A DNA stretch of 64,000 nt from Acidobacteriota bacterium (GTDB lineage: Bacteria; Acidobacteriota; Blastocatellia; RBC074): contig JACPYM010000029.1 in the NCBI GenBank assembly GCA_016196035.1, positions 1-64,000 on the forward strand, in the 5' to 3' direction. Made by a program: the position numbers and the translations under genes. A model generated the notes under the pieces. The model was not told the DNA's origin. It saw only the letters and a list, made by a program, of their open reading frames with translations, and ran no database searches. Positions within the stretch are counted from its first letter, which is position 1. The number at the start of each line of letters is the position of its first letter. Shown piece after piece: positions 18,974 to 36,802 of the stretch.

Positions 18974-20200
18974 ATGATTCAAAGTATAGTCACATTACCG
19001 GTAGAACCGGAATTCCCGGAGTTGGCGCTGGCACGCCGGGGATTTCAGATGATGAAGGCGGACGATCCCGGCGATCGGTTATTTTGGCAACAGGTGGCTG
19101 AGCGTGAACCTGCCAATGAAATCGCCTGGATGCGACTGGCGATGTTAGCTGAGAACGATCAGCAAGCGATCGGCTATTTGCGCAGGGTGCTTGAAATCAA
19201 TCCGCAGAATGAGCAGGCGCTGATTCGCTTGCATCAAGCCTTACTCAATGAAGGCGCGACCCTGGCGCGCGAAGGGAATAAATCACGGGCGCGCTGGCTG
19301 CTGATGGAAGCTTCGGCGCTGAATCCGCAAAGCGAGGAAGCCTGGTTGCGGCTGGCCGAGGTGGCGGAAAAATCAGCCGACTCAATTCGTTGTTTGCAGC
19401 GGGTGCTCAAACTCAACCCGCAAAATGTCGAGGCGATTGCCAAGCTCAATCAGACCTATGCCTTGCAAGCCAACTTTGCACCGGCCGTAAAAACCTGGCA
19501 ATGCCCGCTCTGCGCGGCGGCTTTTCAAGTGGAGTTGACGACCTGTGCGAGTTGCCGCGCCATTCTCAACTTGAATGATCTTGAGGCCGTGCTGGCCAAT
19601 AAAGACGTTGACCGGGAAGTGCTGCTCAATGCCATCCGGCATTATCAAAACCTGACGGAAAGCGTGGATGACTTTCACGCTTACTATTATTTGGGCGTGG
19701 CTTATCTGCACCTCCAGCAACTTCCGGAAGCGGTGCAAGCGTTACGCAAAGCCAGCCTCTTGCGGGCTGATGAGTTGCACTTAAAAGCGCAACTCATCGT
19801 GTTGGAGCAGCGGCAGACCGAGGCGCAAGCCCGTGTCGTGCTGGTGATTGATGACTCGGCGACCATTCGCAAGCTGGTTTCGATAACGTTGCAAAAACAA
19901 GGGCATCGGGTGCTGGAAGCGGCCGAGATGATGGAAGCCCTGGCGAAGCTCAACGAAGCGACACCTGACATGATCCTGCTCGACATCTGCCTGCCTGGGA
20001 TGGATGGTTATCAAATCTGCAAAATTATCAAAGCCTATCCTTCCACCAAAGATGTGCCAGTCGTGATGTTGAGTGGCAAAGACGGTTTTTTTGACAAAGT
20101 GCGGGCCCGGCTGGTGGGCGCGCAAGGGTATCTGACCAAACCGGTCGTGCCCAATGATTTGCTTAAAGCGGTTGAGAATTATTGCGGTGTAGAGAAATAA
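18974..20200 (+). CDS. TPR - zinc ribbon - response regulator protein (PilG-like)
   Basis: A 408-residue fusion. Residues 1-160 hold TPR-like helices (AIGYLRRVLEINPQNEQALIRLHQALL, CLQRVLKLNPQNVEAIAKLNQ). Next comes a zinc ribbon with CPLC and CASC near 177-195, then another TPR-like pair (AYYYLGVAYLHLQQLPEAVQALRKASLL). The C-terminal REC domain (about 287-405) has VIDDSATIRK, the phospho-acceptor Asp in LLDICLPGMDG, MLSGKDG and the Lys in YLTKP. The REC part is closest in style to PilG/PilH of type IV pilus chemosensory systems; TPR and zinc ribbon probably dock a partner. First gene of the chemosensory operon, probably a phosphorylation target of the CheA at its end. Confidence 0.88.
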   Translation: MIQSIVTLPVEPEFPELALARRGFQMMKADDPGDRLFWQQVAEREPANEIAWMRLAMLAENDQQAIGYLRRVLEINPQNEQALIRLHQALLNEGATLAREGNKSRARWLLMEASALNPQSEEAWLRLAEVAEKSADSIRCLQRVLKLNPQNVEAIAKLNQTYALQANFAPAVKTWQCPLCAAAFQVELTTCASCRAILNLNDLEAVLANKDVDREVLLNAIRHYQNLTESVDDFHAYYYLGVAYLHLQQLPEAVQALRKASLLRADELHLKAQLIVLEQRQTEAQARVVLVIDDSATIRKLVSITLQKQGHRVLEAAEMMEALAKLNEATPDMILLDICLPGMDGYQICKIIKAYPSTKDVPVVMLSGKDGFFDKVRARLVGAQGYLTKPVVPNDLLKAVENYCGVEK

Positions 20201-20332
20201 GTTTGAACCAGTTCGCTGGCGCGTTGGCCGGTTCGCTGAGAGGTTTGAATAAGCTGGTCCGACCACGCGGGGAGGCCAAAGAACAAATCAACTGACCACA
20301 CAACTGGCCACACAACAATTGGAGGAACGTTT

Positions 20333-20695
20333 ATGAAGCGAAAGATTCTCTTAGTGGAAGACAGCCCCACCCAGATGCACAGTGTGATGCGGACGCTCCA
20401 AAACAAAGGTTACAGCGTCATCACCGCCGAAAGCGGCGAAGAAGGCTTGGAAAAGGCGCGCCGGGAACATCCTGAATTGGTGGTTCTGGATGTGATTTTA
20501 CCGGGCCGGAATGGCTTCCAGATTTGCCGTGATCTGAAGACTTCACCGGATACCGAGCAATTGCCGGTCATTCTGCTGACCAGTAAGAATCAGGAAAGCG
20601 ATAAGTTTTGGGGCATGAAACAAGGGGCGGATGAATACTTAACCAAACCCTGTAAGGAAGAAGACTTGCTCGCCACCATCGCCCGGCATCTGTAA
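20333..20695 (+). CDS. single-domain response regulator (PilH/CheY-like)
   Basis: A 120-residue stand-alone receiver domain: KILLVEDSPTQMHSVM with the acidic pair, the acceptor Asp in VVLDVILPGRNGFQ, ILLTSKNQESD and the conserved Lys in YLTKPCKEEDL. It is typical of PilH-type regulators, which act as output or phosphate sink for Pil-Chp kinases. ATG is preceded by GGAGG. It lies 132 bases after the TPR/REC gene in the same operon. Confidence 0.93.
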   Translation: MKRKILLVEDSPTQMHSVMRTLQNKGYSVITAESGEEGLEKARREHPELVVLDVILPGRNGFQICRDLKTSPDTEQLPVILLTSKNQESDKFWGMKQGADEYLTKPCKEEDLLATIARHL

Positions 20696-20782
20696 CCGCA
20701 CCAGTCTGGCGTGTGACGCGTCAGCGGGCGGCCTGCCGGATGGCGCCTGCTGCGATAAAGCGAAGAGGGAGTCTTGATCGCG

Positions 20783-21676
20783 ATGATTGATGCCGAAGAC
20801 ATTTTGACGCTGCCCAGCGAGACGCCTTGGGAATTGCTGCCCGATTTGCTGCCGGATTTGTCGCCGGAAAATGCCGCGCCAGTCGAAAACTTGCTACAGT
20901 TCACCCCCGCCGATTTTGGCGAGGACGATGTGCTGAGCCTGGCCGATGAGCTGCCGGATTTGCAGCCCTTACCCCCGCTACAGCAAGCGCAGTTTCAGGA
21001 GCCCTTGCGGCATACTGAGCCGTTGCAACCTGAGAACTTGCTGGCGAACTTTACCAACCTTGACGAGTCTAACGTCGCGTACCACGGCGAAAGCACCGCC
21101 ATGCCGGCGAGAGCATACGCCGACCCCTTTGTGTTAGAGCCGCTTGAGCGACACGAGCCGTCTGCGCTCGCCGCTGAGTTGGCCGCCAGATTGGCGGCGG
21201 TTGAATTGCCGTCCGAAACGGTGGTCGAAGCTGAAAAGCACGTCGTTTTTGCCCTGGCCGGGGCGAAATATGCTGTGCCGATGGAACAGGTGCTTGAGGT
21301 TTGCGATCTCGAACAATTCACCCCGGTGATCAATGTGCCGGACTGGGTGCTGGGGATTGCCAACCTGCGCGGCGATATTGTTTCAGTCGTGGATTTACGT
21401 CATTTCCTCGACAGTTCGACGGAGGCTTTGGCCCGGCGCCAGCCGTTGCGGAATTTGGTCGTGGTGCAAACGCAACGCGGGGATCTGACCACCTGTCTGG
21501 CGGTCGAAAGCATGCTCGGTCTGGCGCAAGCACCCACGGCGGAAATTCAAACGGTCGAACGCGTTTTCGGCGATGGTTTAACGCCACATACGCGCGGCTT
21601 TTTGGCGCAAGGCGACGAATTGTTGAGCATGCTCAATCTGGAAAGCCTGCTGCGCGCGCTCGAAATTACCGGCTAA
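20783..21676 (+). CDS. CheW-domain protein with long acidic N-terminal extension (PilI-like)
   Basis: The C-terminal 140 residues form a CheW domain (VVFALAGAKYAVPMEQVLEV, VINVPDWVLGIANLRGDIVSVVDLRHFL, FLAQGDELLSMLNLESLL), the adaptor that couples MCP receptors to CheA. The first 155 residues are an acidic, Pro/Leu-rich low-complexity stretch (repeats of ELLPDLLPDLSPE and PLPPLQQAQ type) not found in ordinary 150-residue CheW proteins; it may tether the adaptor or bind a partner. ATG 20783 is chosen because GGGAG lies eleven bases upstream; TTG 20774 is too close to it. Confidence 0.88.
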   Translation: MIDAEDILTLPSETPWELLPDLLPDLSPENAAPVENLLQFTPADFGEDDVLSLADELPDLQPLPPLQQAQFQEPLRHTEPLQPENLLANFTNLDESNVAYHGESTAMPARAYADPFVLEPLERHEPSALAAELAARLAAVELPSETVVEAEKHVVFALAGAKYAVPMEQVLEVCDLEQFTPVINVPDWVLGIANLRGDIVSVVDLRHFLDSSTEALARRQPLRNLVVVQTQRGDLTTCLAVESMLGLAQAPTAEIQTVERVFGDGLTPHTRGFLAQGDELLSMLNLESLLRALEITG

Positions 21677-22041
21677 ACCCGCGTCGGCGCGAGGACACAT
21701 CCCACCTCGTCACCCTCATTGATCAAGAGGCTTCTGACAAGCCTCGTCTGTTCGCGCATCCCGCACTACAAACACAATGACGGGCTTGTCCCTAACGGCC
21801 GCTGGTACCGACTGCGAAACGACGGAGTGCGGCAGGCGGCGTTATCCGCGCAGCAATGAGCGGAACGCACCGGCGACCTGAAAGTGCGGGGCGGCCTGGT
21901 CAGCCCGGGCCAGTCTGCACAGGGCCTTTCATTGATTTGCGCAAACGCAGTGGCTGGCCAGCAGTGCATTTTGAAAGCCACCAGACGTCTCACGCTCCCG
22001 CGGCGCGAGTCTGTTGCAGTGGCCAAACAGGCAGAAAAGTT
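21677..22041. other. intergenic, no gene recognised
   Basis: Between the CheW and first MCP genes. It contains a small hairpin GAGGCTT-CTGAC-AAGCCTC at 21727-21745 without a T-run. The MCP frame extends upstream to 21856, but that extension is Arg/Pro-rich and lacks a membrane segment, so the MCP start is placed at 22042. Probably transcribed as part of the operon. Confidence 0.4.
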
Positions 22042-24255
22042 ATGCAACTTAAATCCATTCAATTTCGCTTCGCGCTTTGGGCGGGCATCTGTTTATTGGT
22101 GTCCGGGGCCTTGTTCATCGGGTATTCCGCGTATTCCGCCCGCACTGCGGCGGTGGCCAAGGCGCAAGAAGAAGCCGTCGGCATTGTGCAAACCGAAGCC
22201 GGCCGCGTCCGCACTGAATTGGAATATGCGCTCAATGTGACCCGGACGGTGGCCCAGACGTTGACCGCGGCCAAAGAACAGAAAGGGCTTGCGCTCACGC
22301 GCGAAGGCGTCAACACGATTATCAAAAAAGTGCTGACCGAGAACCCGCAATTTGTCGCCTTCTACTCCGATTGGGAACCGAATGCCTTTGATGGCCGCGA
22401 TCAAGAGTATGGAGGGAAACCCGGTTATAACCCGGATGGCCGCTTCAACTTCACCTGGAGCCGCGGTGAAGATGGCGTCATTCGCTCGGACGTGACGCCG
22501 CCCGGCGATGAAGAGGTTTCCGATTGGTACCAAGCGCCCAAACGGGCCATGAAGGAAGCCATCATCGAACCATACCCCTACAACGTGCAGGGGAAGGAAA
22601 TCCTCGAAACCACGGTTTCCGTGCCCATCATCGTCAATGGCGAATTCATTGGTATGGTCGGGGCCGACCTCAAAATTGACTTCCTGCAAAAAATGGCCGA
22701 TGGCATCAGCCTTTATAACGGCACAGGTAAGTTACTGTTATTGAGCCACAAAGGCATTATTGCCGGCGCCACGAGACAGCCTGAGCTAATCAAACAGCCG
22801 GTGAACAAAGCGCACCCGGAATTAAGCGAGATGCTGCCTCAGATCCAGGCTGGCCAAGGCCAGATCGCCGTGGCTGGTGACAAGCTTAGAGTGTTAATTC
22901 CTTTGCCCGTTGGCCAAACGGGCACTCCCTGGGCGGCGCTGATGCTGATTCCGACCACGGCCGTTACGGCTGAGGCCACGCGGACAATGTGGGGGCAATT
23001 GCTCACTGGATTGCTGCTGACGGCGTTGGCGATGTTGTTATTGTGGTATCTGGCGGGCAAAGTCGCCGCGCCCATTAAAGCGGCGGCCCGCTTTGCCGAG
23101 AATCTTGCCAACGGTGAAAACGTCACCAAAGTCCCGGTGACCTCTGCCGATGAAACGGGTCGTTTGCTGACCGCGATGAACAGCATGTTGGAGAGCGCAA
23201 ACTCTCTGGTCCAGACCCGCGAAGAGCGCGACAACCTGCAACGTTCGATTATCAAACTGCTCAATGAGGTCGGTTCGGTCGCCGAAGGCGACCTGACGCG
23301 GCGGGCCGAAGTCACCAATGATGCCACCGGCGCCATTGCCGATTCCTTCAACTTTATGACCGGCGAATTGCGGCGCATTGTCGGCGATGTGAAACAAGTG
23401 GCGACCGAGGTCGGTTCAACCGCCAATCAGACACAACACGCCACGCGGCAACTGGCGGAAGAAGCCAGGACGCGCGCCGACCAGATCATCCAGGCCTCAC
23501 AGGATATTGACGCGATGGCCGATTCGATCCAGCGGGTTTCCGAGACCGCCGCCACCTCCAAGGATGTGGCGCATCAATCGCTGGCGACCGCCAAACGCGG
23601 AGCCGAAGTCCTGCAACATACGGTGGCCGGGATGAGCCGCTTGCGCGAACAGGTGCAGGAAACGGCGAAGCGCATCAAACGGCTGGGCGAACATTCGCAG
23701 GAAATCGGCGAGATCGTGCAATTGATCAACGATATTGCTTATCGCACCAGCGTGCTGGCCTTGAACGCTTCGATTCAAGCGGCCCGCGCGGGTGAAGCCG
23801 GGCGCGGTTTCGCCGTGGTGGCCGAAGACGTGGATCGGTTAGCCAAACGCTCCAGCGAAGCGACGAAACGCATTGCCGACCTGGTCAAGACCACGCAGAT
23901 GGGCGCGAAAGAGGCTATCGCGGCAATGGAAGAAAGCACGCACAGCGTGGTGCAAGGGACGACGTTGATTCACGAGGCTGGCGAAGCCTTAAGCGAAATC
24001 GAGAGTGTCTCGGCGCAATTGGCCAAACTTGTGCAAGGCATCTCAGAGTCGGCCCAACAACAGACCCGGGAATCCGCCGCCGTCTCGCAACGCATGGTCT
24101 GGATTTCGAAGGCGACGGGCGAAACGGCCAGCGGAATTAAGCAATCGGCGTTGTGGGTGGATCAGTTGGCCGCGCTGGCCGATGACCTGAATGTGTCGGT
24201 GGCCTCCTTCAAACTACAAAGTTCTCGTCCTCAAAGCCTGGCCCAAGTTCCGTAA
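22042..24255 (+). CDS. methyl-accepting chemotaxis protein 1 (dCache-like sensor)
   Basis: A 737-residue receptor. An N-terminal membrane helix (residues 10-30) is followed by a periplasmic sensor of about 300 residues with the Cache hallmarks FVAFYSDWEPNAFDGRD, SDWYQAPKR, IEPYPYN and SVPIIVNGEFIGMVGADLKID; such domains bind small ligands such as amino acids. A second helix (LLTGLLLTALAMLLLWYLAGKV) leads to HAMP segments and a long coiled-coil signalling domain with tip NASIQAARAGEAGRGF. First of three tandem receptor genes between CheW and CheA. No CheR or CheB gene is nearby to adjust methylation. Confidence 0.92.
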   Translation: MQLKSIQFRFALWAGICLLVSGALFIGYSAYSARTAAVAKAQEEAVGIVQTEAGRVRTELEYALNVTRTVAQTLTAAKEQKGLALTREGVNTIIKKVLTENPQFVAFYSDWEPNAFDGRDQEYGGKPGYNPDGRFNFTWSRGEDGVIRSDVTPPGDEEVSDWYQAPKRAMKEAIIEPYPYNVQGKEILETTVSVPIIVNGEFIGMVGADLKIDFLQKMADGISLYNGTGKLLLLSHKGIIAGATRQPELIKQPVNKAHPELSEMLPQIQAGQGQIAVAGDKLRVLIPLPVGQTGTPWAALMLIPTTAVTAEATRTMWGQLLTGLLLTALAMLLLWYLAGKVAAPIKAAARFAENLANGENVTKVPVTSADETGRLLTAMNSMLESANSLVQTREERDNLQRSIIKLLNEVGSVAEGDLTRRAEVTNDATGAIADSFNFMTGELRRIVGDVKQVATEVGSTANQTQHATRQLAEEARTRADQIIQASQDIDAMADSIQRVSETAATSKDVAHQSLATAKRGAEVLQHTVAGMSRLREQVQETAKRIKRLGEHSQEIGEIVQLINDIAYRTSVLALNASIQAARAGEAGRGFAVVAEDVDRLAKRSSEATKRIADLVKTTQMGAKEAIAAMEESTHSVVQGTTLIHEAGEALSEIESVSAQLAKLVQGISESAQQQTRESAAVSQRMVWISKATGETASGIKQSALWVDQLAALADDLNVSVASFKLQSSRPQSLAQVP

Positions 24256-24354
24256 CAGGATTTGCCGGCCTCGCTAGCGTAAGTCTAATTCTGACCTGAC
24301 CCAGGTTTGGCCCAGTAACACGAAAGCCAGTAACACGAAAGAAGGAAGTGCGGA

Positions 24355-26598
24355 ATGAAGCGTGAATCTAGCATCGGAAACTTAAAGCTCTGGCAGAAAC
24401 AGGCGTTGATCGTGACCCTCCTGAGTCTGTCGGTCGTGGCGCTTCTCTCTTTGACCATCCGCGAAAAGAACGGCGGAATTGAGTTCGCACGGAACGAGGT
24501 GAATGGTGTTGTTTACCTGCGTACCTTGCGCACGTTACTGGACCATTCTGCCCAGTTCATTGGCGCCGGGAATAACAGCAAAGCCGAGCGCATAGATGAC
24601 ACCCTGCTGCAACTCGAAAACCTCGACCGGCAGTGGGGCGCGGAGTTGAAAACCAGCGACCAGTTGCGGGCGCTGACCGCGCAGTGGCAAGGCATGAAAA
24701 GCAAAGGCGCCGCGGCTGCGCTCAACGCAGCCTTCCTCGCCAGCATCCGTGCGCTGATGATGCAAGTGACAGATACCTCTGGGCTGTTCGTAGACCCTGA
24801 TCTGGATGCCGTCTACACTATGGAAACGGTCGCCCTGGAGTTGCCGAGGCAACAGGATTTTATCGCCCAAGCCATGTGGCTGGGCACGCGTGCTTTGACG
24901 AACAAGCAGTTGCCTCTGGCCGACAGGGTCAAATTGCTGGGGCTAAGCGCGGAAATTCAGACCGTGACGGAGACAGCCAAGAGTAATGTGGAAAAAGCCG
25001 TTGGCTACAACACCTCCGGCGTGGTCAAAGCGCTTGAACCAAAGCTCCAGGAAAACCTGGCCGCCGTGCAAACCTTGTTGGAGTGGTTGAACCAAAAAAT
25101 CCTCGCGCCCGCCTCCCTCGAAACAAGCACGAACAATGAAGCGCAAGAATTTGTCACTGTTAGTAACACAGCCTTGAACACCAGCTTTAATTGCTGGGAT
25201 GGCGCGACCCAAACGCTGGCGGATTTGATCGGCGCGCGCAGCGCCAGTCTGGCCTGGAATCGCAATGCTTTCCTGCTTGGTGGGGTGTTGATGGCGCTGG
25301 TGGTCGGCATGACCCTGTTTATGCTGGCGCGCAAGGTGGGCCGCCAACTCAAGACGCTGACCAAGCTGGTAGATGAAATCAATGCCGGTAATACCGAGGC
25401 ACGAGCCGAAGTGCTCGCCAAAGATGAACTGGGCTTACTGGCCCAGGCCTTCAATGAAATGCTCGATGCCAATCAGGGTTTGGTGCAAACACGTGGAGAG
25501 CGCGACGAAATTCAACGCTCCATTATGAAACTGCTCGATGAAGTGAGCGGCGTGGCGCGCGGCGACCTCTCGCGCGAAGCTGAAGTGACGGACGGGATGA
25601 CCGGCGCTATTGCCGATGCGTTCAATTACATGATCGAGCAGTTACGCCACATCATCGGCAAGGTGCAAACAGTCGCGCGCGAGGTCAATGTCACCGCCAG
25701 CGCCACCCAGCGCAACACCCAGCATTTGGCCGAAGAAGCCAAACAACGCGCGGAACAATTGGTCAGCGCCGCCCACGAAATTGACGCGATGGCCTTCTCA
25801 ATCCGCAATGTCGCGGAAACTGCCGAAGCCTCGAAACTGGTGGCCCAGAAAACGCTGGAGACGGCGAAACGCGGCTCCAAGATTTTGCAAGGCACCATCA
25901 AAGGCGTCAGCCAGGTGCGCGATCAGGTGCTGGAAAGCTCGCAGCACCTCAAACAATTGAGCGCCACCTCGCGCGAGATTGGTGAGGTGGTGCAGGTCAT
26001 CGAAGAGATCGCCAAACGCACCAGCGTGCTGGCGTTACATGCTTCGATTCAGGCCGCCAGCGCGGGCGAGGCTGGGCGCGGTTTTGCCGTGGTCGTGCGC
26101 GAGGTCGAACATCTGGCGTTGCGTTCGACGGAAGCTGCCAAGTTGATTGGCGAGTTGGTCAACCGGACGAGGCAAAACGCGCAAACCGCCGCCAGCGCGA
26201 TGGAAGAAAGCAGCCGTGGCGTGCACGAAGGCACAACCATGATCTGTGAGGCTGGCGACGCCTTGGTCGAGATTGAACAGGTGATGGCGCAACTCACCGA
26301 TTTGATTCAATCCATTTCCCGCACCACCGAAGTGCAAACCAAAGAGTCCGCCGCCGTTTCCTCCGCGATGTTGCAGCTTTCCGAGGCGACCCGGCAAACG
26401 GCGACGGGCATTTCGCGCTCGGCCACGACAGCGACGCAATTGGCCGCGCTGGCCGATGATCTCAACGGTTCGGTCGCGTCCTTTAAGCTGGCGGCGCATG
26501 AGCGCTCGACCGGGCGGCTGGGCCGTCTGACCGGCAGCAGCCTGCGTCCCATTAGCGTTGAGGAATGGGGCAGCGGCCAATACTTCACCCAGAACTGA
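24355..26598 (+). CDS. methyl-accepting chemotaxis protein 2
   Basis: A 747-residue receptor with a membrane helix near residues 18-36, a helical extracytoplasmic domain of about 270 residues containing DTSGLFVDPDLDAVYTMETVALELPR, a second helix (AFLLGGVLMALVVGMTLFMLA), HAMP and a signalling domain. The tip reads HASIQAASAGEAGRGF: the normally invariant Asn of LALNA is His here. The cytoplasmic half aligns closely with the receptors on each side, the sensor half does not match receptor 1, consistent with tandem duplication plus sensor exchange. 99 bases after receptor 1, preceded by GAAGGAAG. Confidence 0.92.
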   Translation: MKRESSIGNLKLWQKQALIVTLLSLSVVALLSLTIREKNGGIEFARNEVNGVVYLRTLRTLLDHSAQFIGAGNNSKAERIDDTLLQLENLDRQWGAELKTSDQLRALTAQWQGMKSKGAAAALNAAFLASIRALMMQVTDTSGLFVDPDLDAVYTMETVALELPRQQDFIAQAMWLGTRALTNKQLPLADRVKLLGLSAEIQTVTETAKSNVEKAVGYNTSGVVKALEPKLQENLAAVQTLLEWLNQKILAPASLETSTNNEAQEFVTVSNTALNTSFNCWDGATQTLADLIGARSASLAWNRNAFLLGGVLMALVVGMTLFMLARKVGRQLKTLTKLVDEINAGNTEARAEVLAKDELGLLAQAFNEMLDANQGLVQTRGERDEIQRSIMKLLDEVSGVARGDLSREAEVTDGMTGAIADAFNYMIEQLRHIIGKVQTVAREVNVTASATQRNTQHLAEEAKQRAEQLVSAAHEIDAMAFSIRNVAETAEASKLVAQKTLETAKRGSKILQGTIKGVSQVRDQVLESSQHLKQLSATSREIGEVVQVIEEIAKRTSVLALHASIQAASAGEAGRGFAVVVREVEHLALRSTEAAKLIGELVNRTRQNAQTAASAMEESSRGVHEGTTMICEAGDALVEIEQVMAQLTDLIQSISRTTEVQTKESAAVSSAMLQLSEATRQTATGISRSATTATQLAALADDLNGSVASFKLAAHERSTGRLGRLTGSSLRPISVEEWGSGQYFTQN

Positions 26599-26658
26599 GC
26601 GCTGCGGCGCTGTAGAAAAACCTGCCCTGGCGGGTGTTGGCGCTGATAAGGAGTCACT

Positions 26659-28944
26659 ATGCTGAAAAATTTGCAGTTGTTGCAACGGTTGAAAATCTGG
26701 CAGAAGCTGATCTTAATCGCCCTCTTTATGGGGTTGCCGATCCCGGTCATCACCTGGCTCTATGTCACCGAAAAAGGCAATACGATCGGCTTTGCCCAGA
26801 AAGAGCTTTACGGCACAGAGCTCCTGTTGCCCTTGCAAAAGCTGGCGAAAGAGATCGCCAATCATCGCGGCCTGGCGAGCGCCCTGTTGCGCGGCGAAAC
26901 CTCGTTGCAGTCTCAATTGTCTGAAGCGGCGCGCGGTGTTGAACAGCAATTGGCCGCCGCTGAAGAGCAAGACCGCCGGGAAATTGGCCAGACCGGAAAT
27001 ACATACGGCGGGTTACTGCAAACTTCCGGCAAGCTGCGCGCGCTGCGGCAGAAATGGAATCTGCTCAAAAGCAAGACGGCGCAAACCGAGGCGCGCGCGA
27101 ATTTCGACGAACATACGCAATTGATCGCCGAGGTCAACGACCTCATCATTTACGCGGGCGACACCTCCAACCTGATTCTCGACCCTGACCTCGATACCTA
27201 TTACCTGATGGATGCGGTCATTATTCAAATCCCGCGCTTGGCCGAAGAGGCCAATCGGTTGCGTGGTTTGGGGGCGGGCCTGGCCGTGGCGAAAAAAGCC
27301 ACGCCGGAAGAGTTTGCCCAACTGACTACCTTTTTCAGTCAGGTACAGGTGACGTTGCAGAACCTGGAACGCAGCTTTGGCAAGGCCTATGCCGCCAATC
27401 CTAGTTTGAAGGACCGGCACGATGGGCAGTTGGAAATTCTGGCCAAAGAGGTAAACGGGTTTATCGTCTGGGCGGATCGTCAACTCACCCGCAGCAGCGA
27501 TTCCTCCATGCTGGCGACGCAATTCCTGGCCGCCGGAGCGCCCTCCATCGAACGGCTGATGCAATTGCATCAACTGGCGCTCGACGATCTGAAGACGCTC
27601 TTGCAAGCGCGTGTGGATAAAGTGAAACGCGAGCGCAACTCGGTTTTGGTGCTAACCGTGCTGGGGTTGTTATTGACGGTGCTGGCGGTGGCCGTGATTA
27701 CCCGGGGGGTCAATCAACAAACCCAAGCGCTCACGCAACTGATCGCGCACATTGACAACGGCAATTTCGAGGAACGCGCCCCGGTACTTTCAAGCGACGA
27801 ATTGGGGCGCACCGCGCAGGCCTTCAACAACATGCTCGACAACACGCGCGGCCTGATGCAGTCCCGCACCGAACGTGACGAAATTCAACGTTCGATCATC
27901 AAGCTGCTGGATGAAGTCAGCGGTGTGGCGGAAGGCGATCTGACGCGCGAGGCCGAAGTCACCGAAGGCATGACCGGCGCCATCGCCGACGCGTTCAACT
28001 ACATGATGGACAGCCTGCGCCAACTGATCGGCAAGGTGCAGAACGTTTCCCAACAGGTCAACAGCACCGCCGCCGAAACCCAAACCAGCGCCGAACGCCT
28101 GGCCCAAGGCAGTCAGGAACAAGCCGCCCAAATTACCAATACCACCATGGCCCTGGCCGAAATGACGCGCGCCATCCAACAGGTGGCCGAGAGCGCCGAA
28201 TTGTCAGCGGCCGTGGCCGACCAATCATTGAGCACGACGCACAAAGGCTCCGAGATTGTGCAACACAACATGCACGGCATGCTGCGCGTGCTCGAACAGG
28301 TGCAGGAAACGGCGCGCCAGATGCAGCAATTGAGCGAGCGTTCGCAAGAGATCGAAGAGATCGTGCATCTGATTGATGAAATCGCCGACCGTACCGGCGT
28401 GCTGGCGCTCAACGCTTCCATCCAGGCCGCCACCGCAGGCGAGGCCGGCGCGGGGTTTGCCGTGGTTGCGCGCGAAGTCGAACAACTCGCCGGGCGCTCT
28501 GCCGACGCCACCAAACGCATCAGCACGCTGATTCGCACAATTCAGGGCGGCACCCGTGACGCGCTCAGTGCGATGGAAGAAACCTCGCGCGAAGTGCTGG
28601 CGGGTTCCAAACTGGCCAATCAAGCCGGTCAATCGCTGACCGAGATCGAAGGGGTGACCAACCGGCTGGCCGAACTGGTGCGCGCCATTGCCGACGACTG
28701 TAAGTTGCAAGCCCGCAGTTCGACACAACTCTCGCAAACCATGGCCCAAATCGCCAAGATCACCAACCAGACCACCAACGGCGTCATTCAATCCGCCGTC
28801 ACCGTCAAGAGCCTGGCCGAACTGGCCGACGAACTGCGCGCTTCGGTCGTGTCGTTTAAGTTGCCGGGCAACGCGCCGGGCAAGGTTGCCGGGCCGCACT
28901 TCCAGGCGGGCAAGGCGGCCTACGGCACGGCGCATTTGAATTAA
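26659..28944 (+). CDS. methyl-accepting chemotaxis protein 3
   Basis: A 761-residue receptor. Membrane helix near residues 17-35, then a helical sensor of about 300 residues including [19 protein letters not shown], which resembles the nitrate/nitrite-sensing (NIT) type helix, and [16 protein letters not shown], a sequence shared in outline with receptor 2. A second helix ([20 protein letters not shown]) is followed by HAMP and the signalling coiled coil. The tip reads [16 protein letters not shown]: the conserved Arg of GRGF is replaced by Ala. ATG follows AAGGAG. Separated from receptor 2 by 60 bases. Confidence 0.92.
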
Positions 28945-29196
28945 CCCGCTTGGCAAACGCACGCGGCCAAATAGTTGTCCGGCGGGCGCAAGTTTCATCT
29001 GGCGGGCGGCCCTGCTGCGCGCGCCGGATGCTGAACAATTTAGCAGGGCAGTGTCATCAAAGGCGCCCGCCCCACGGGCGTGACAAACACCAACAACGAT
29101 CCACGAAGCCACACGAAGCGGTATCAGAGGTGGCCCACGAACCCCGTCTAAACCCATCGTGAAGCCTCTTGGTTGTATTTCCAAAGAGAGACTTCT

Positions 29197-29925
29197 ATGC
29201 AATACAAAACCAGACTCACGCTGAGCGCCGCCGGGCTGCTCCTGACGATGATTCTTTTCAATACTGTGCCGGCGGCGGCGCAATCCTTGATCTTCAACAC
29301 GCCCTCGACCGATGTGGTCGCCAAGGGCAAAACCTATGTCGAGATGGATTGGTTCGGCCATTTGGAAAGTCTCGACAACGGCGGTTATCACGGCTTTTAT
29401 CCGCGTGTCGTGGTGGGGGTCGGCAAAGGCGTCGAGGTGGGCGCCAATGTTGCCTGGTCGAAATCGGTCACGCCGAATCAGCCGGTGCAAGTGATCCCCA
29501 ACGTCAAGTGGCAGGTTTACAGCAATGAGAAAACGGGCGTCACCTCCACCGTCGGCGTGCTGGCTTATCTGACGGTCAAAAACCGGCAGAACGGCGGCGA
29601 TAACTACGCGCTGCTTTACAGCAACGTCAGCAAAAAGTTCAAAAGCGATTTTGGGCCGCGCTTCACGGGCGGTTATTACCATCTGGTGGGCCGGGCGGCC
29701 GGTACTGGCACGACGAAAGGCGCGATGCTGGGGTACGAACAACCGCTGCATCCGAAAGTTTCGTTTGTGATGGATTGGTACAGCGGCAAAAACAGCTTGG
29801 GGTATCTCACCCCGGCGCTGGTTTTTTCGTTGCCCAAAAGCCAGTCAATTTCGGCGGGCTGGCTGATCGGCAACCAAGGGCGGAAAAACAATTACCTGTA
29901 TCTGACCTACGGTTTCACGTTTTAA
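29197..29925 (+). CDS. putative outer-membrane beta-barrel protein A
   Basis: A 242-residue exported protein. Signal peptide MQYKTRLTLSAAGLLLTMIL... ends near PAAAQS. The mature part is rich in alternating strands (YPRVVVGVGKGVEVGANVAW, PNVKWQVYSN, VSFVMDWYSGKN) and ends in YLYLTYGFTF; the final Phe is the usual recognition signal for outer-membrane beta-barrel assembly. It has a paralogue at 40771-41490 sharing PSTDVVAK, PRVVVGVGKGVEVG, NVSKKFK, GPRFT and GYEQP. I do not know a named family. Its location inside the chemosensory operon suggests a linked surface or sensing role, which is inference. ATG 29197 preceded by AAGAGAG. Confidence 0.75.
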   Translation: MQYKTRLTLSAAGLLLTMILFNTVPAAAQSLIFNTPSTDVVAKGKTYVEMDWFGHLESLDNGGYHGFYPRVVVGVGKGVEVGANVAWSKSVTPNQPVQVIPNVKWQVYSNEKTGVTSTVGVLAYLTVKNRQNGGDNYALLYSNVSKKFKSDFGPRFTGGYYHLVGRAAGTGTTKGAMLGYEQPLHPKVSFVMDWYSGKNSLGYLTPALVFSLPKSQSISAGWLIGNQGRKNNYLYLTYGFTF

Positions 29926-30012
29926 GGTCTTGGCGGCAGGGTCGGCGAAGAAACAATTTGCAGACCCTGCCGCGCCCTTACGTCAAGCTGGGGTGTGAGC
30001 GAGGACAAGGCG

Positions 30013-33000
30013 ATGAATGAAAGCAGCGAGGATTTGAGCGTGAATGATTTGAATGAGACCGCCGGCGCAATGAGTTGGGCCAGCGGCGGGCCGGGTGATC
30101 AATTGCTCCCTGAATTGCTCAACGGATTTATCGCTGAAGTGAAGAGCTATCTGCCCAAGCTTCAAACGGCCTTGGACGAATATCAGCGCCGCCCGCAACA
30201 AACCGCGTTGCTGGCGGAAGCGCAACGCCACGTCCGCACGATCAAAGGCGCCGCCGCCGTGGTTGGGTTGATGCCGCTGGGTGACCTCGCCAGCAGTTTT
30301 GAAGAAGTGTTGGAAAAGCTGATTGCCAGCCAACTGCCGGTGAGCGTTGCGGCCTTAACGGCGTTCACCCGACTACTCCTGCAACTCGATCATTATCTGG
30401 ATGCGGTTGTCACGGGCGCGCGCGATTTCCCCGCAGAATTAACGCAGACCTTGCGCGAATTGCGCGACCTGACCAGCCCGCCAGCGCTCAATTCATTTGA
30501 CGCCGTACTCAACACCCCCTTGCGTAACACGGGGCCGCTGCGTCCGATCCTGTCCTTCATTCCGCCTGCGCCCGCAATGCCGCCGCCAGCGGCGCAAAGT
30601 GCCGGCGCGCCGCCCGCCGCAGCGGAAGCGGAAATTTCCGGCCTGCCCGATTTGTCGGCTTGGCTGGACTTGAATGACGAAGAGGGCCTGCTGCCATTGG
30701 TGGCTGAAAATCCCGCGCCAGTCGTTATGTCGCCTCCGCCGTTACCCGTGCGGCAACCCAGCCTTGCGGAATGGGAAGAAGAAAGGCGGGCGGAGGACGC
30801 CGCAGTTTTTGCCGAAGTGGCCTTCACCGCAGCCCCCGCTACAACCGAAGCGCCTGCCTTCGCTGTTGCCGCTCCGCCCGCCGAAACGCTGGCGGGGGCC
30901 GAAATCACGGCCAGCGACGCGCCCTTGGCCGCTGAACCATTTGAGGAGTTGCTCGCGCCTTTTCCACCCGCCGACACCAGCGCCAGCGCAATCGAAACAC
31001 CGGTGCCGGAAACCGAGTTGGACATGCCGGATATTCCGGCGGAATTGCTCGAAGTCTTTTTGCCCGAGGCCGAAGAGCATTTGCGCGTCATGACGCTCTC
31101 ACTGCCCGCGCTGGCCGCGCAACCCGGCAATAAAGCGTTGTTACAAGAGATTCGGCGCAGCGCCCATTCGCTCAAAGGCTCCGCCGCCGTCGTCGGTTTT
31201 CAGGAACTCGCCAATCTCGCCCACCGCGCCGAAGACCTGCTCGATTTGCTTTACGATGACGAGTTGAAGCTGACCTCAGAGCTGCTGCAACTGCTTTTCG
31301 CTTCCACCGAAATCCTGGAGAACCTGCTCAATCAACGGGCAGATCAGGATGTCCTGGCGGGCCTGTATGCCGCTTATGCCGAAGTGCTCGCAGCCCCGCA
31401 CCCAGCGCCGGGAGCGGAATATACGTTTGAAGCACTGGAGGCCTTAGCCGATCCGCTGCCGCTCAAACGCACGACCAAGCCCTTGCCGAACGAGACGGCG
31501 GAGCCGGAGTCTGACAGCACGGCGGAAAAAGACGCCCCGGCGGTGGCGGTCGTCAATCGCGGCAAATATGTGCGCGTGCCGATTGATCAATTAGACACGG
31601 TGGTCAAATTGGTGACGGAGTTGTTGGTCAATCACGCGGCGTTTGAACAGAACATGACGACCCTCAACCGCCAGCTCGAAGAGGTGCATACCAATTCGAC
31701 TCGGTTGAACCGCGTGGCCACAAAGATGGAGGTTCAATTCGAGGCCAGCACGCTCGGCGGCGGCCACCCGGCGCCTGCCCGGCCTTTTTCGGCCAATGCC
31801 TTACTCAATAGCCTTACTCAACCCCACGGCTTGGCAGCGCCCTTGCTGAACCAGAATACCTACGGCTTCGATGCGCTGGAATTTGACCGATACACCGAAT
31901 TTCACTTGCTGTTGCGTGAATTGACGGAAGCGGCCAGCGACGTGCACGCGCTCGAAAGCGAACTGGTCGAAATCAAAGACGACTTCCAAAATTGCCTGCA
32001 ACGGGAAGCGCGGTTGTGCAGCGACATCCAGGAAAAATTGATGCGGCTGCGCATGGTGCCGCTCTCAACCTTGTCCTCGCGCTTGCACCGCACCGTGCAT
32101 ACCGTGGCGGCGCGGCGCGACAAACAGGTCAATCTGGTGATCGAAGGCGACGAGACGCGGTTGGACAAAACCGTCATCGAAGAAATTGCCGACCCCTTGT
32201 TGCACATTTTGCGCAATGCCATTGACCACGGCATCGAAACGCCCAGCGCGCGTGCGGCCAATGGCAAGCCGACCAGCGGCACGATCCGCTTGCGCGCGTT
32301 TCACGACAATACCCAAACCGTGCTTCAAATCGGGGATGACGGCAGCGGTCTTAATCCCGAACGTATCCGTCAAACCGCGCTGAAAAACGGGTTGTTGAGC
32401 GCGGCTGAGGCGGCGCATTTGAGCAACGAAGAGCTTTACTCACTGATTTTTTTGCCGGGCTTCAGCACGGCCGAAGCCGTCAGTGAAATTTCCGGGCGCG
32501 GGGTCGGGATGGATGTGGTCAAATCCACCATCCACCGTTTGAAAGGCAGCATTAGCATGGATTCCCAACCCGGCCAGGGCACGCTCTTTACGCTGCGCCT
32601 GCCGCTGACCTTGGCGGTCATGCGTTCACTGCTGGTCAAGACGCAACAACAAATTTTCGCCGTGCCCCTTGCGGGCTTGTCACAGGTCGTCAAGCTCACG
32701 CCCAATCTATTGGATCGCATCGGTCACGACACGGTGGTGCGCACCGGCGGCAAGGTCTATCCGTTGTTGCAACTCAGCAAACTGCTCAATCTCAAGCGTC
32801 ACGAAATCAACCATGCCACGCAAATGGCATTGATTATGAACATCGAAGGTCATCAGGTCGCCATTGCCGTGGATGAAACCCTCGAAGGCCGCGAAGTTGT
32901 GGTGAAAAACCTGGGCAATCATTTGCGCCGCGTGCACGGCTTGACCGGTGCCACGTTGCTGGGCGACGGCAGCGCCGTTTTGATTCTGAACCTGCCGGAA

Positions 33001-33564
33001 TTATTGCGTGAGGTGTTCCGTCCGCGCGCCGCCTTTGAGCTGCGCGCGGAACCCAGATTGCCAGTGGCGGCACAGTCGGCGGCACCCCGCGCCATTGCAT
33101 CACCGGTAATAACTACATCGGCGCCGAAAGCAGTGGCCGCGCCCGTGAGTGTGCCCGTGAGCGCGTCCTTGACTGTGCCTTTGACCGTGATGGTAGTGGA
33201 CGATTCGCTCAGCGTGCGCCGCGTGCTGACCAACCGGCTGACCAGCGCTGGCTGGAATGCGTTGCAAGCCAAGGATGGCCTCGACGCATTGGAGCAATTA
33301 CAGCAAATGACCATCCCGCCTGATTTGCTGCTGGTGGACATTGAGATGCCGCGCATGGACGGTTACGAATTTATCAACACCTTACGCAAGCAACTTGAGT
33401 ACGCTGATTTGCCGGTGATCGTATTGACCTCGCGCGCAGGCCAGAAACACCGTGACCGCGCCTTTGAAGTCGGGGCGACCGAATACCTGGTAAAACCTTA
33501 CCAGGATGACGTGCTGCTCAGCCTGATCCGGCGGCTGGCCAACCGACGTAGCCGCGAGAGCTAA
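30013..33564 (+). CDS. CheA-type hybrid histidine kinase with two Hpt domains and REC (ChpA-like)
   Basis: The kinase of the cluster, 1183 residues. Hpt1 spans about residues 30-130, a Pro/Ala/Glu-rich linker about 160-340, Hpt2 about 340-450 with H385 in AHSLKGSAAVVG, a dimerisation region, the HATPase core (LLHILRNAIDHGIE, IGDDGSGLN, GRGVGMDVVK, GTLFTLRLPLTLAVM), a CheW-like domain, and a C-terminal REC (VMVVDDSLSVRRVL, DIEMPRMDGYEF, YLVKPYQ). In Hpt1 the position of the phospho-accepting His is Arg (R75 in VRTIKGAAAVVG), so only Hpt2 can be a normal phosphate carrier. The layout resembles ChpA of type IV pilus systems. ATG 30013, preceded by GAGG, is preferred over GTG 29995. Confidence 0.93.
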   Translation: MNESSEDLSVNDLNETAGAMSWASGGPGDQLLPELLNGFIAEVKSYLPKLQTALDEYQRRPQQTALLAEAQRHVRTIKGAAAVVGLMPLGDLASSFEEVLEKLIASQLPVSVAALTAFTRLLLQLDHYLDAVVTGARDFPAELTQTLRELRDLTSPPALNSFDAVLNTPLRNTGPLRPILSFIPPAPAMPPPAAQSAGAPPAAAEAEISGLPDLSAWLDLNDEEGLLPLVAENPAPVVMSPPPLPVRQPSLAEWEEERRAEDAAVFAEVAFTAAPATTEAPAFAVAAPPAETLAGAEITASDAPLAAEPFEELLAPFPPADTSASAIETPVPETELDMPDIPAELLEVFLPEAEEHLRVMTLSLPALAAQPGNKALLQEIRRSAHSLKGSAAVVGFQELANLAHRAEDLLDLLYDDELKLTSELLQLLFASTEILENLLNQRADQDVLAGLYAAYAEVLAAPHPAPGAEYTFEALEALADPLPLKRTTKPLPNETAEPESDSTAEKDAPAVAVVNRGKYVRVPIDQLDTVVKLVTELLVNHAAFEQNMTTLNRQLEEVHTNSTRLNRVATKMEVQFEASTLGGGHPAPARPFSANALLNSLTQPHGLAAPLLNQNTYGFDALEFDRYTEFHLLLRELTEAASDVHALESELVEIKDDFQNCLQREARLCSDIQEKLMRLRMVPLSTLSSRLHRTVHTVAARRDKQVNLVIEGDETRLDKTVIEEIADPLLHILRNAIDHGIETPSARAANGKPTSGTIRLRAFHDNTQTVLQIGDDGSGLNPERIRQTALKNGLLSAAEAAHLSNEELYSLIFLPGFSTAEAVSEISGRGVGMDVVKSTIHRLKGSISMDSQPGQGTLFTLRLPLTLAVMRSLLVKTQQQIFAVPLAGLSQVVKLTPNLLDRIGHDTVVRTGGKVYPLLQLSKLLNLKRHEINHATQMALIMNIEGHQVAIAVDETLEGREVVVKNLGNHLRRVHGLTGATLLGDGSAVLILNLPELLREVFRPRAAFELRAEPRLPVAAQSAAPRAIASPVITTSAPKAVAAPVSVPVSASLTVPLTVMVVDDSLSVRRVLTNRLTSAGWNALQAKDGLDALEQLQQMTIPPDLLLVDIEMPRMDGYEFINTLRKQLEYADLPVIVLTSRAGQKHRDRAFEVGATEYLVKPYQDDVLLSLIRRLANRRSRES

Positions 33565-33587
33565 TTACTTGCTGACAAAAATGTATA

Positions 33588-33637
33588 CTGAAAGGCACGC
33601 TGCGACGAAATTGTCGCAGCGTGCCTTTCAGTTTTTT
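33588..33637 (+). terminator. strong intrinsic terminator of the chemosensory operon
   Basis: A perfect 19-base stem (33588-33606 with 33613-33631), loop GAAATT, then TTTTTT. It begins 24 bases after the CheA stop codon and marks the end of the operon. Confidence 0.95.
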
Positions 33638-33987
33638 CGGCCAGTCAACGAGGTATTGGCTTTGTGGGGGCCGCCGTGAATTTCATTATCAGGTTGGCTT
33701 GGCATCGGGGTCACCCATGCTACAGGAAGGTCGTATAGAAAGGTATCGCGAGTGAACAAAATTGTCAGACTTCTTTTGATAATAAACAACTTTGTCGGTT
33801 AAGGGTCGTCAGCCAACACGCCAGTCAGACGCGTTTATTCGAGCCAAAAGCAATCGCGGCAACCGCTTGCGAGGTTGCGGGCCACCCGCCGCCGCTTTGG
33901 CATTGAGCTTGCACTTAGGTCCAACGAATACAAACCACCGCGCTTCGTGAAAGCAAAAGAAGCAAGGGCTTGGATGATGTCACAGGA
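33638..33987. other. intergenic before glnD
   Basis: No gene recognised. The section is more AT-rich than its surroundings (TTTGATAATAAACAAC around 33775) and probably carries the promoter of the nitrogen-control genes, but no box pair with acceptable spacing could be fixed. Start of the next gene is uncertain within the last 18 bases. Confidence 0.4.
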
Positions 33988-36759
33988 ATGCAAATCAACT
34001 TTGAGACAATTCGTCAGCACGCAGGGGAAAAGCTGCGGCGCATCGAAGCCCAACCGACTCCGGCAGAGCGGCTGAGCGCGCTCAAAAAGTTTTTGAAAAT
34101 CGAAACGCAACGGCTGCAATTGCGGCACCGTTTCGGCATCAGCGGTTCACAAATTGTCGCCGCGCGCAGTTTGATTGTTGATCTGGTGATCCAGCGCATC
34201 GCCCGCACCGCCGCCGAAGAGTTGCAGCACGACGCGGCCAAAGTTCCTTTTGCGGTGATTGCGTTGGGCGGTTATGGCCGCGTGGAACTCGCGCCGCATT
34301 CGGACATTGACGTGATGTTTTTGCATCAAGGCCGCAAGGAAGCGGCCGCCGCCGCGTTGCTGAGCGAAAAGATGCTCTACCTGCTCTGGGACATGGGGTT
34401 CAGCGTGGGTCACAGTAACCGCAGCGTGAGTGAGTGTCTGGCTGAAGCGAAAGACGACAATATCACGCGCAATTCGTTGATTGATGCGCGGCTGCTCTGG
34501 GGCAGCGAAACGCTGTTTGAACAATTGACCGAGCGGATCGACGATGAAATTTTCAGCAATTCGCGGGGGCAGCAGCAGGCTTTGCTGGGACAGATTTTGG
34601 CCGACCGGACAGGGCGTTATGAGAAATTCGGCAACGTCGCCTGTTTACAAGAGCCAAACGTAAAAGAGACTGCTGGCGGCTTACGTGATTTGCATACGCT
34701 GTTGTGGGCCACGCGTGTGGCCCACGGCAAAGCGAACCTGATTGATTTGGTGGCGGAGGGCGTAGTGCCCGAACGGGACGCCAAGGCCATCACGGCGGCT
34801 TATGACTTTTTGCTGCGCGTGCGCAACGAAATGCATTTCGCCACGGCACGGCGCACTGATGCCTTGACGCTGGATTTGCAACAGCAGGTTGCGCACAGCT
34901 TCGGGTACATCGACAGCGCCGAAGCGCAGGCGTCGGAAAGTTTCATGCGCGACTATTACCTGCACGCACGGCGCTTGCACAGTCTGTGCGAAGCGCATTT
35001 GCAGCGGGCGGCGAGCAAGCAGGAAAAGAAACGCTGGTTCAGCCGCGCGCGCACCATGTCGGCCCAAGGCGGGTTCGTGATGCGCGATGGCGTGCTCGAT
35101 GTCGAAAAGACCGCGACCGAATTGGCCGAGACTGCGTTGGCCGAGCCTACCCTGGATGGCCACCGCATGTTGCTGGCGTTTAGCTATGCCCAAGCGACCG
35201 GCGCGCCGTTCAGCGTGAATTTGCAGGAGTTGGTGCAAGCCAACCTGGCCGCCGTCAATAAAACTTTTCGCGCTTCGACGGACGTGGCGCAGACCTTTAT
35301 GAAGTTGTTGCGCGCCAAAGGCCGTGTCGCGGCGGGCTTGCGGCTGATGCACGAAGTCGGTTTCCTGGCCAAATATCTGCCGGAATTTGGCCGCGTGACC
35401 TGTCTGGTGCAACACGATCTTTATCACCGCTTCACCGTGGATGAGCATACGTTGCGCACCATCGAAGTGCTGGATGAACTCGCCAATTCGCGCAACAAAC
35501 AATTGGAACGCTACCGTGCGCTGTATCAGGAGATCAGCGATCCGGCCATCCTGCACATGGGCTTGTTGATGCACGACATCGGCAAAGGCCTGGGCGGCGG
35601 CCACACCGAGAAAGGCATCAAGATTGCCGAGCGTGTCTGCGAACGGTTGCAACTGGATGCACAGGCCAGCGAACAGATCGTCTTTTTGGTGCGGCAGCAC
35701 TTGCTGATGGCGCACATCGCGCAACGCCGCGATTTGAGCGACGAAAAAATCGTGCGCGATTTTGCCGCCCAGATCGGTACGCTCGACAGCTTGAATATGC
35801 TGACACTGCTCACCTATGGCGACATCAATGGCGTCGGGCCGGGCGTTTGGAGCGAGTGGAAAGACACGCTGTTGTGGGAGCTTTACAGCAAAGCGCGCGC
35901 GTTGCTGGTGCCTGAACCGGAACACGATGAGACGGCGGAACGCTTGCGCGAGCGCATCGTCAGGATGCTGGCGAGCGAGGTGGATTACGCCGAAGTGCAA
36001 CAGCATTTCGCGATGTTGCCCGAAGATTACGCGCGCTTCACCGCGCCGCAGGTGATCATCGAACACATTCGGCTGGCGCATGCGCTGAATTCACGGCGCG
36101 TCAAAACCAGTTGGCGCGTCAATGCGCAATCCAAGTGCACTGACTTGCACGTGTGCGCGCGCAACCGGCGCGGTCTCTTCGCCAATCTGGCCGGAGCGCT
36201 GACGGCGCAAGGCGTCAACATTCTAAGTGTGAGTTTGAACACGCGGACGGACGGTCTGGCGGTGGATTCGTTCAAAGTCAGCGACACCGTCGGCGAACCG
36301 TTGGCCGATCCACAGCGCTGGGAACAGATTGACGACTCGATCAAGCGTGTCCTCAGCGGTGAGTTAGACATTGCGGCTGCCGTGGCAAAACGCTTGCACG
36401 CGCAAACGGCGTCGCGGTTCAGCAAGCGTAAAACGGCGCTGCCCAAAGCGGTGCAACGCGCCGCCAAGCTGAGTTGGGATAATCAATCGTCGGATAAAAG
36501 CACGATTTTGGAAGTCCAAACGGCTGATCGTTTGGGTTTGGCTTACAAGCTTGCGAGCACGCTGGCGAGCCTGTCGCTCGACATTGTGTTTGCGAAAGTG
36601 GCCACCGAAAAGCATCTGGCACTGGATGTGTTTTATGTGACCGATGCAGCGGGGCGAAAATTACCTGACAGTGAATTGGCAGAACTTGAGCGCGCGCTTC
36701 GCGCGGTGCTTGATGAGCCAATCAAACCATTGCCACAGGTTTCTGCGGGTCGCGGTTAG
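33988..36759 (+). CDS. glnD: PII uridylyltransferase / uridylyl-removing enzyme
   Basis: GlnD senses glutamine and adds or removes UMP on PII. Domain order over about 923 residues: nucleotidyltransferase with VIALGGYGRVELAPHSDIDVMF (Gly-Gly and the catalytic DxD), the GlnD-type helical domain, an HD hydrolase (VDEHTLRTIEVLDEL, LLMHDIGKGLGGGHTEKG with HD), and two C-terminal ACT domains (CARNRRGLFANLAGALTAQGVNIL; TADRLGLAYKLASTLASLSLDI) that bind glutamine. ATG 33988 and TTG 33970 are both possible starts; neither has a good ribosome site. It leads directly into amtB and glnK, its protein partner. Confidence 0.95.
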   Translation: MQINFETIRQHAGEKLRRIEAQPTPAERLSALKKFLKIETQRLQLRHRFGISGSQIVAARSLIVDLVIQRIARTAAEELQHDAAKVPFAVIALGGYGRVELAPHSDIDVMFLHQGRKEAAAAALLSEKMLYLLWDMGFSVGHSNRSVSECLAEAKDDNITRNSLIDARLLWGSETLFEQLTERIDDEIFSNSRGQQQALLGQILADRTGRYEKFGNVACLQEPNVKETAGGLRDLHTLLWATRVAHGKANLIDLVAEGVVPERDAKAITAAYDFLLRVRNEMHFATARRTDALTLDLQQQVAHSFGYIDSAEAQASESFMRDYYLHARRLHSLCEAHLQRAASKQEKKRWFSRARTMSAQGGFVMRDGVLDVEKTATELAETALAEPTLDGHRMLLAFSYAQATGAPFSVNLQELVQANLAAVNKTFRASTDVAQTFMKLLRAKGRVAAGLRLMHEVGFLAKYLPEFGRVTCLVQHDLYHRFTVDEHTLRTIEVLDELANSRNKQLERYRALYQEISDPAILHMGLLMHDIGKGLGGGHTEKGIKIAERVCERLQLDAQASEQIVFLVRQHLLMAHIAQRRDLSDEKIVRDFAAQIGTLDSLNMLTLLTYGDINGVGPGVWSEWKDTLLWELYSKARALLVPEPEHDETAERLRERIVRMLASEVDYAEVQQHFAMLPEDYARFTAPQVIIEHIRLAHALNSRRVKTSWRVNAQSKCTDLHVCARNRRGLFANLAGALTAQGVNILSVSLNTRTDGLAVDSFKVSDTVGEPLADPQRWEQIDDSIKRVLSGELDIAAAVAKRLHAQTASRFSKRKTALPKAVQRAAKLSWDNQSSDKSTILEVQTADRLGLAYKLASTLASLSLDIVFAKVATEKHLALDVFYVTDAAGRKLPDSELAELERALRAVLDEPIKPLPQVSAGRG

Positions 36760-36802
36760 ATCCATCAACACAAAGCAAAATTCAATCGAGGAGATACCAG
36801 CT

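Follow-up and report, generated by a model that had tools for sequence, protein, structure and literature searches.

An operon in the window, the whole 64,000-nucleotide stretch of Acidobacteriota DNA that we analysed, encodes a chemosensory system that appears to derive from the Tfp class, to work without adaptation, to have been uncoupled from pilus retraction and to have been turned to sensing inorganic nitrogen. We assign this reading a probability of about one half. The listing of open reading frames and their Pfam matches places eight genes, all on the forward strand, at positions 18974–33564 in the order TPR–zinc ribbon–REC, REC, CheW, MCP1, MCP2, MCP3, barrel1 and hybrid CheA (Table 1). 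A first-pass annotation, made from the sequence itself, had named two REC proteins (one fused to a TPR and zinc ribbon), an extended CheW, three MCPs and a CheA hybrid, and both the coordinates and the Pfam matches agree with that list.

Table 1 Features of the chemosensory operon and of the unit that follows it (positions in the window)
Feature	Position	Strand	Details
TPR–zinc ribbon–REC response regulator	18974..20200	+	408 aa; Pfam TPR and REC
Stand-alone REC (CheY/PilH-like)	20333..20695	+	120 aa; Pfam REC; phosphorylation pocket intact
CheW with N-terminal extension of 145 residues	20774..21676	+	Pfam CheW; alternative start at 20783 possible
MCP1: dCache-type sensor, HAMP, MCP signalling domain	22042..24255	+	probable start; longest frame from 21856
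MCP2: NIT-like sensor with neither Arg-Gly pair, HAMP, MCP signalling domain	24355..26598	+	
MCP3: NIT-fold sensor with Arg70-Gly71 and Arg202-Gly203, HAMP, MCP signalling domain	26659..28944	+	
barrel1: signal peptide and predicted outer-membrane beta-barrel, Amt/Kdp-associated family	29197..29925	+	probable start; longest frame from 29173
CheA hybrid: Hpt1 (no His), Hpt2 (His391), dimerisation, HATPase, CheW, REC	29995..33564	+	1189 residues
Intrinsic terminator	33587..33632	+	20-pair stem, then six T
glnD	33970..36759	+	neighbouring unit, outside operon
Two ammonium transporter (amt) genes	36644..40623	+	neighbouring unit, outside operon
barrel2, paralogue of barrel1	40771..41490	+	directly after the two amt genes; neighbouring unit, outside operon

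Between the listed frames of the operon the intergenic gaps are 60–228 bases, with a larger one before the likely start of MCP1. That start is probably 22042 rather than 21856, because in the longest frame the first transmembrane segment begins only at residue 68; barrel1 probably starts at 29197. The operon ends at the intrinsic terminator, a perfect 20-bp stem and six T that lie 22 bases past the cheA stop codon. In the first protein two CxxC motifs, at residues 177 and 191, form the zinc ribbon; most orthologues keep both the fusion and the pair of motifs, with unchanged spacing. Upstream of the operon, the window also encodes a DNA cytosine-5 methyltransferase (TIGR00675 match, 12310–13557).

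The ancestry of the operon is very probably that of the Tfp class, which includes Pil–Chp and the cyanobacterial Pix–Hmp systems; both the CheA clade and the gene order bear out its initial description as Pil–Chp-like. Multiple Hpt domains, no P2 and a C-terminal REC are the Tfp pattern in CheA (PMC10782961). By Pfam, the operon's CheA has two Hpt domains, H-kinase_dim, HATPase, CheW and a C-terminal REC, with no P2. Hpt1 has Arg in place of the phospho-accepting His, leaving Hpt2 with His391 as the only Hpt that keeps one; the kinase boxes are intact, as are the phosphorylation pockets of all three REC domains. CheA matches with E below 1e-70 occurred in 48 of 147 related genomes, and leaving out two (G015 and G019), whose matches were no stronger than those of other CheA classes, gave 46 operon holders. 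A pattern scan for further CheA, using peptide patterns that proved poor, matched only distant kinases.

Looking for the same gene order in other genomes, as the first-pass annotation had suggested, showed that operons of the class share it: the window CheA and 34 CheAs from such operons form one clade (support 97) with a common order. Within that clade the window is sister to its congener G001 (99), then joined by genome G031 and then by G007. The operon clade lies with ChpA, a cyanobacterial CheA and an Azospirillum CheA within a group of 44 rows (85), in which the branches of the references are long and the tree leaves the fork among them open. The fullest order among relatives reads TPR–REC, DUF4388, REC, CheW, MCP, CheR, CheA–REC, CheB, CheW–CheW (locus L213, and nearly so L084 and L086), and most of family f3 has TPR–REC, CheW, MCP, MCP, CheA–REC, with neither CheR nor CheB. 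The window operon follows the Pil–Chp order of REC, REC, CheW, MCP, (CheR), CheA–REC, (CheB), minus CheR and CheB, and of the genes in its fullest relatives it is further without DUF4388 (PATAN-like) and the second CheW. G007 retains CheB together with CheW–CheW, and G031 has neither CheR nor CheB in the operon. The branching order of the CheAs places the probable loss of CheR from the operon ahead of the split between the window and G001, G031 and G007, and that of CheB after it.

As first annotated, the interval 18974–33564 contains no CheR, CheB or pilus genes. Elsewhere in the genome, where the annotation had advised looking, we found three CheR genes (contigs C128, C101 and C24) and two CheB genes (C128 and C101). 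C101 and C128 carry two other chemosensory clusters, each with its own CheR and CheB, the one on C128 beside a flagellar gene, FlhA; the third CheR is an orphan on C24 (L075:5047-7625) that adjoins moaC and moeA. The lack of both enzymes from the operon is a known and ordinary trait. CheR is absent genome-wide from 28 of the 46 operon holders, and the operons of Acinetobacter, the cyanobacterium Allocoleopsis and Deinococcus have neither gene in place; in a Synechococcus elongatus control genome, MCP was detected and CheR and CheB were not. We therefore dropped the idea that the lack is novel. Of the earlier remark about missing methylation enzymes, the absence stands and the unusualness does not, since most operons of the same class, and those of three other phyla, are alike in this respect.

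The idea that the lost CheR had been relocated was discarded as well, because the C24 orphan belongs to a different family. In the CheR tree the operon CheRs make up a clade of their own (99) that includes none of the window genome's three; on these sequences, the cognate CheR has been lost and not moved. The C24-type orphan family is also found in relatives (L227-L230, L234, L235, L239-L241) in which no operon-type CheA was detected. Three f3 genomes (L236, L237, L242) have separate CheR and CheB genes between large multi-REC proteins, possibly a signalling hub.

With three CheR and two CheB genes in the genome, the enzymes of the C101 or C128 clusters could methylate MCP1–MCP3 in trans, and adaptation would then be normal. 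However, no match to the methylation consensus, strict or loose, was found in any of the three receptors, whereas each of the genome's other three MCPs, all in the C101 cluster, shows two to four strict ones; where an operon retains CheR (L072, L084, L086), its receptors show one or two sites, strict or loose. The CheRs of C101 and C128 also fall in other clades, and 28 of the 46 holders have no CheR at all. Methylation from outside the operon is improbable, and the sequences make it likely that MCP1–MCP3 have no cognate methylation.

The genome was also surveyed for type IV pilus genes outside the operon, a check proposed in the first-pass annotation. The PilT model (TIGR01420) found nothing over its cut-off (best 165 bits against 319); it is passed by 123 of the 147 relatives and by 44 of the 46 operon holders, the window genome and its congener G001 being the only holders without it (Fisher's test, p 0.0075, with kinship ignored). 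Within the window's family, PilT occurs only in G007 (> 490 bits), and nine other genomes of the family are also without it. The window is part of contig C29 of an assembly that is 9.59 Mb and 96.9% complete, so single gene absences are not absolute. PilQ gave no match over its cut-off either, in what is a weak test, since just 1 of the 14 control genomes reaches that cut-off. The link to type IV pilus motility genes by which the Tfp class is otherwise recognized was, on these two genes, not seen. The survey did find a PilB/GspE-like ATPase, located with GspF and a secretin–cohesin protein, and a TadA/CpaF locus.

An ordinary Tfp-class system might nevertheless still control a pilus here, either type IVa with PilT missed or Tad/Flp, in response to surface or nutrient cues and with the barrel incidental. 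The gene order and CheA clade of the window's operon match those of systems that control pili, PilT does accompany the operon in nearly all holders, the TadA/CpaF locus and the PilB/GspE-like ATPase are present, and some pili retract without PilT. The pattern within the family runs against it: PilT is missing from the window genome and from nine others, while G007 has it, and PilQ is below cut-off. We consider pilus control rather unlikely, and likely that the operon does not act through retraction of a type IVa pilus.

The genome has six MCPs, three in the operon and three on C101. In a tree of signalling domains, MCP3 falls beside one receptor from each of G007 and G031; the second receptor lineage in these two genomes takes in MCP1 and MCP2, which are each other's sisters (98). 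The three tandem receptors, which had been thought non-standard, are indeed present, but by this tree they derive through one extra duplication from the two-receptor arrangement of G007 and G031. A dCache sensor is found both in MCP1 and in its G031 counterpart.

The predicted structure of the MCP3 sensor (pLDDT 73, pTM 0.72) is highly similar to NasR (PDB 4akk; Z 24.4, rmsd 3.8 across 273 residues; the second-best row has Z 14.7), and NasR was the sole Foldseek match below E 0.001 (E 2.6e-4). According to this model, the sensor has the nitrate-receptor (NIT) fold of NasR. Its Arg-Gly pairs lie at residues 70–71, in the first long helix, and 202–203, where the counterpart of NasR helix 5 is expected, as matched by a rough residue offset. 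The nitrate site of NasR is predicted to include R176 of helix 5 (PMC7496416), and NasR is stated to possess both arginines of that site (PMC8199190). MCP2 has lost both pairs. Neither the MCP2 nor the MCP3 sensor matches the Pfam NIT profile (PF08376, cut-off 24.9), which orthologue sensors from G007 and G013 pass (L083, 42.8 bits; L084, 37.5). Sequence searches of the PDB with the sensor returned chance matches only. The PilJ sensor domain had no Pfam match in the MCPs, and PilJ (8wdf) stood at rank 50 in Foldseek, with the NIT fold first. In a published test, the NIT domain of the chemoreceptor PA4520 did not bind nitrate or nitrite (PMC6381276); a NIT fold is therefore no proof of the MCP3 ligand.

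The beta-barrel protein reported by the first-pass annotation is encoded by barrel1 (longest frame 250 residues). Three features point to a barrel: the protein carries a signal peptide, it ends in Phe, and a model of low confidence (pLDDT 45) predicts about 12 strands. Neither barrel1 nor its family has a match in Pfam or NCBIfam, and a plasmid search with the barrel found none. Homologues occur in 62 of the 147 relatives, yet in a phylum-wide sample of 297 genomes only 18 have one. In a tree of 83 members, kdpA is nearby in 27 and amt in 14, often with glnD or glutamine synthetase. Nearly all kdp-linked barrels fall in one clade, and in several loci (L166:3759-11334, and similarly L148, L161, L162 and L165) the barrel lies just upstream of kdpA-kdpB-kdpC and is itself preceded by genes for a DUF4118 sensor kinase and a response regulator. 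These positions suggest that the kdp-adjacent barrel is an outer-membrane partner of potassium uptake. Barrel1 sits on a long branch in the amt-linked (Amt/GlnD/GS) subclade, and barrel2, which is 55% identical and 11 kb downstream, lies elsewhere in that subclade and is not its sister.

Barrel1 could be a hitch-hiker, a copy of the nearby amt-linked barrel that fell into the operon and has no signalling role. The closeness of the paralogue agrees with this, the long branch suggests relaxed or changed constraint, and relatives with the same operon (G013, G017, G031 and G007) have no barrel in it. However, the reading frame is intact, with its signal peptide and C-terminal Phe, and the two barrels are not sisters. 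Moreover, members of the family lie in the chemosensory operons of three other genomes, against a rough chance expectation of 0.1–0.3 cases among 97 matches: in G114 the barrel is in the same type of operon, between CheW and MCP and with CheR and CheB kept, and in G122 and G062 (L093:5866-17999 and L094:3124-11379) the operon belongs to a different CheA class and the barrel separates CheW from two or more tandem MCPs, with an internal stop in the copy of G062 (L094). Two further genomes (G036 and G056; L087:6553-8031, L088:9794-11296) carry an unrelated OmpL-like porin (PF07642) between MCP and CheA, which likewise speaks against a passenger. We regard the hitch-hiker as a serious possibility, at somewhat less than even odds. 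The barrel in this position is non-standard, as had been proposed, and also one of several captures of its family by chemosensory operons.

In the window, barrel1 occupies the position of cheR in relatives; the idea that it replaces CheR was dropped, as the G114 operon has both. A bolder view holds that barrel1 is a working signalling part: as an outer-membrane channel devoted to small nitrogen ions, or to potassium, it would set the ligand level that the receptors meet in the periplasm. The class would then have recruited such barrels several times, and the operon would encode a three-layer, adaptation-free nutrient-status sensor. We hold this view to be doubtful.

The case for nitrogen draws on the NasR fold and both Arg-Gly pairs of MCP3, the place of barrel1 in the Amt subclade, the glnD-amt-amt-barrel2 cluster directly downstream, and nitrate assimilation genes elsewhere in the genome, where NasA-like molybdopterin oxidoreductase and NirB genes stand side by side in a region that also has a sigma-54 activator, HemD and an NMT1-like binding protein. 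The strong terminator between the operon and glnD makes the adjacency one of position and not of co-transcription. A nitrogen-related input is, on this basis, about an even bet.

The same class of system could instead serve an alternative function with an input unrelated to nitrogen, its NIT and dCache sensors binding other ligands and the glnD/amt neighbourhood being accidental. NIT domains can take other ligands (PMC6381276), MCP2 has neither Arg-Gly pair, the terminator separates cheA from glnD, and the orthologous operons that were mapped elsewhere are not beside glnD. Against such an input, MCP3 retains both pairs, barrel1 comes from the Amt-associated subclade and the genome has nitrate assimilation genes; we judge it unlikely, though still to be reckoned with. 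The strongest objections to nitrogen sensing are that the ligand is predicted from a model, that a terminator stands ahead of glnD and that barrel1 may be a passive duplicate of its neighbour.

If nitrogen sensing is the correct reading, the barrel in the outer membrane would let small nitrogen ions or compounds into the periplasm. MCP3, with its NIT fold, would probably bind nitrate or nitrite, MCP1, with its dCache sensor, probably a small amine or amino acid, and MCP2 would be a degenerate NIT sensor. The three receptors would signal through CheW to the single CheA, which would autophosphorylate on Hpt2 and pass phosphate to TPR–zinc ribbon–REC and to the stand-alone REC, with its own REC as a phosphate sink. 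An array that has no cognate methylation would signal the steady level of ligand and not its change in time, which fits the reporting of nutrient status. Pilus retraction would no longer be the output, for which Tad pili, gene expression and the flagellar system are candidates. In this scheme the parts with their order, the CheA clade, the genes lost from the operon, the absent PilT, the NIT fold and the family of the barrel are shown, whereas the ligand, the path of the phosphate, transport by the barrel and the output are inferred.

Neither the kinase core nor the lack of adaptation enzymes is of a new kind. The most unusual features, which the sequence-only annotation had no means of seeing, are the genome without PilT, the NIT-fold receptor and the connection of the barrel with ammonium transporters. 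In the open-access literature we did not find the combination of NIT receptors, an Amt/Kdp-type barrel and a PilT-less genome, nor anything relevant on chemosensory operons with an outer-membrane protein. Tfp-class systems take their name from their link to type IV pili, and a lineage that kept the kinase core, gained a receptor and lacks the retraction motor would illustrate, in nature, how a chemosensory pathway changes its output. A methylation-free operon also allows one to test whether such arrays report absolute levels or gradients, and a barrel family found beside genes for ammonium and potassium uptake predicts a new class of outer-membrane cation channels.

Among known proteins, NasR shares the predicted fold of the MCP3 sensor and, as judged by residue offset, its two Arg-Gly pairs; NasR is a soluble antiterminator that responds to nitrate, whereas MCP3 is a transmembrane chemoreceptor with a predicted ligand. 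Among known systems, Pil–Chp of Acinetobacter baumannii (pilG-pilH-pilI-pilJ-chpA) and Pseudomonas aeruginosa has the same order of REC, REC, CheW, MCP and hybrid CheA, and a multi-Hpt CheA with a C-terminal REC. The Acinetobacter operon, from which pilK is missing (PMC5635159), likewise has no CheR or CheB in place. Unlike Pil–Chp, the window has three NIT/dCache MCPs where Pil–Chp has one PilJ, its first REC is fused to a TPR–zinc ribbon, a barrel gene is present and PilT is absent. The cyanobacterial Pix/Hmp/Tax systems (PATAN–REC, REC, CheW, MCP, CheA–REC) are similar in gene order and, in Allocoleopsis, in an operon without CheR and CheB, as is Synechocystis tax1 in both respects (PMC5812497). 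They differ in having other sensors, PATAN–REC instead of TPR–zinc ribbon–REC, type IV pili and no barrel. The REC–CheW–MCP–CheA–DUF4388–RR operons of Deinococcus also have no CheR or CheB, and that of D. radiophilus has two MCPs; in a plasmid operon of D. aetherius, cheW and MCP are separated by a gene for an ABC solute-binding protein (L201:4927-6228). The Deinococcus operons differ from that of the window in placing DUF4388 and RR after CheA, and in having a solute-binding protein instead of an outer-membrane barrel.
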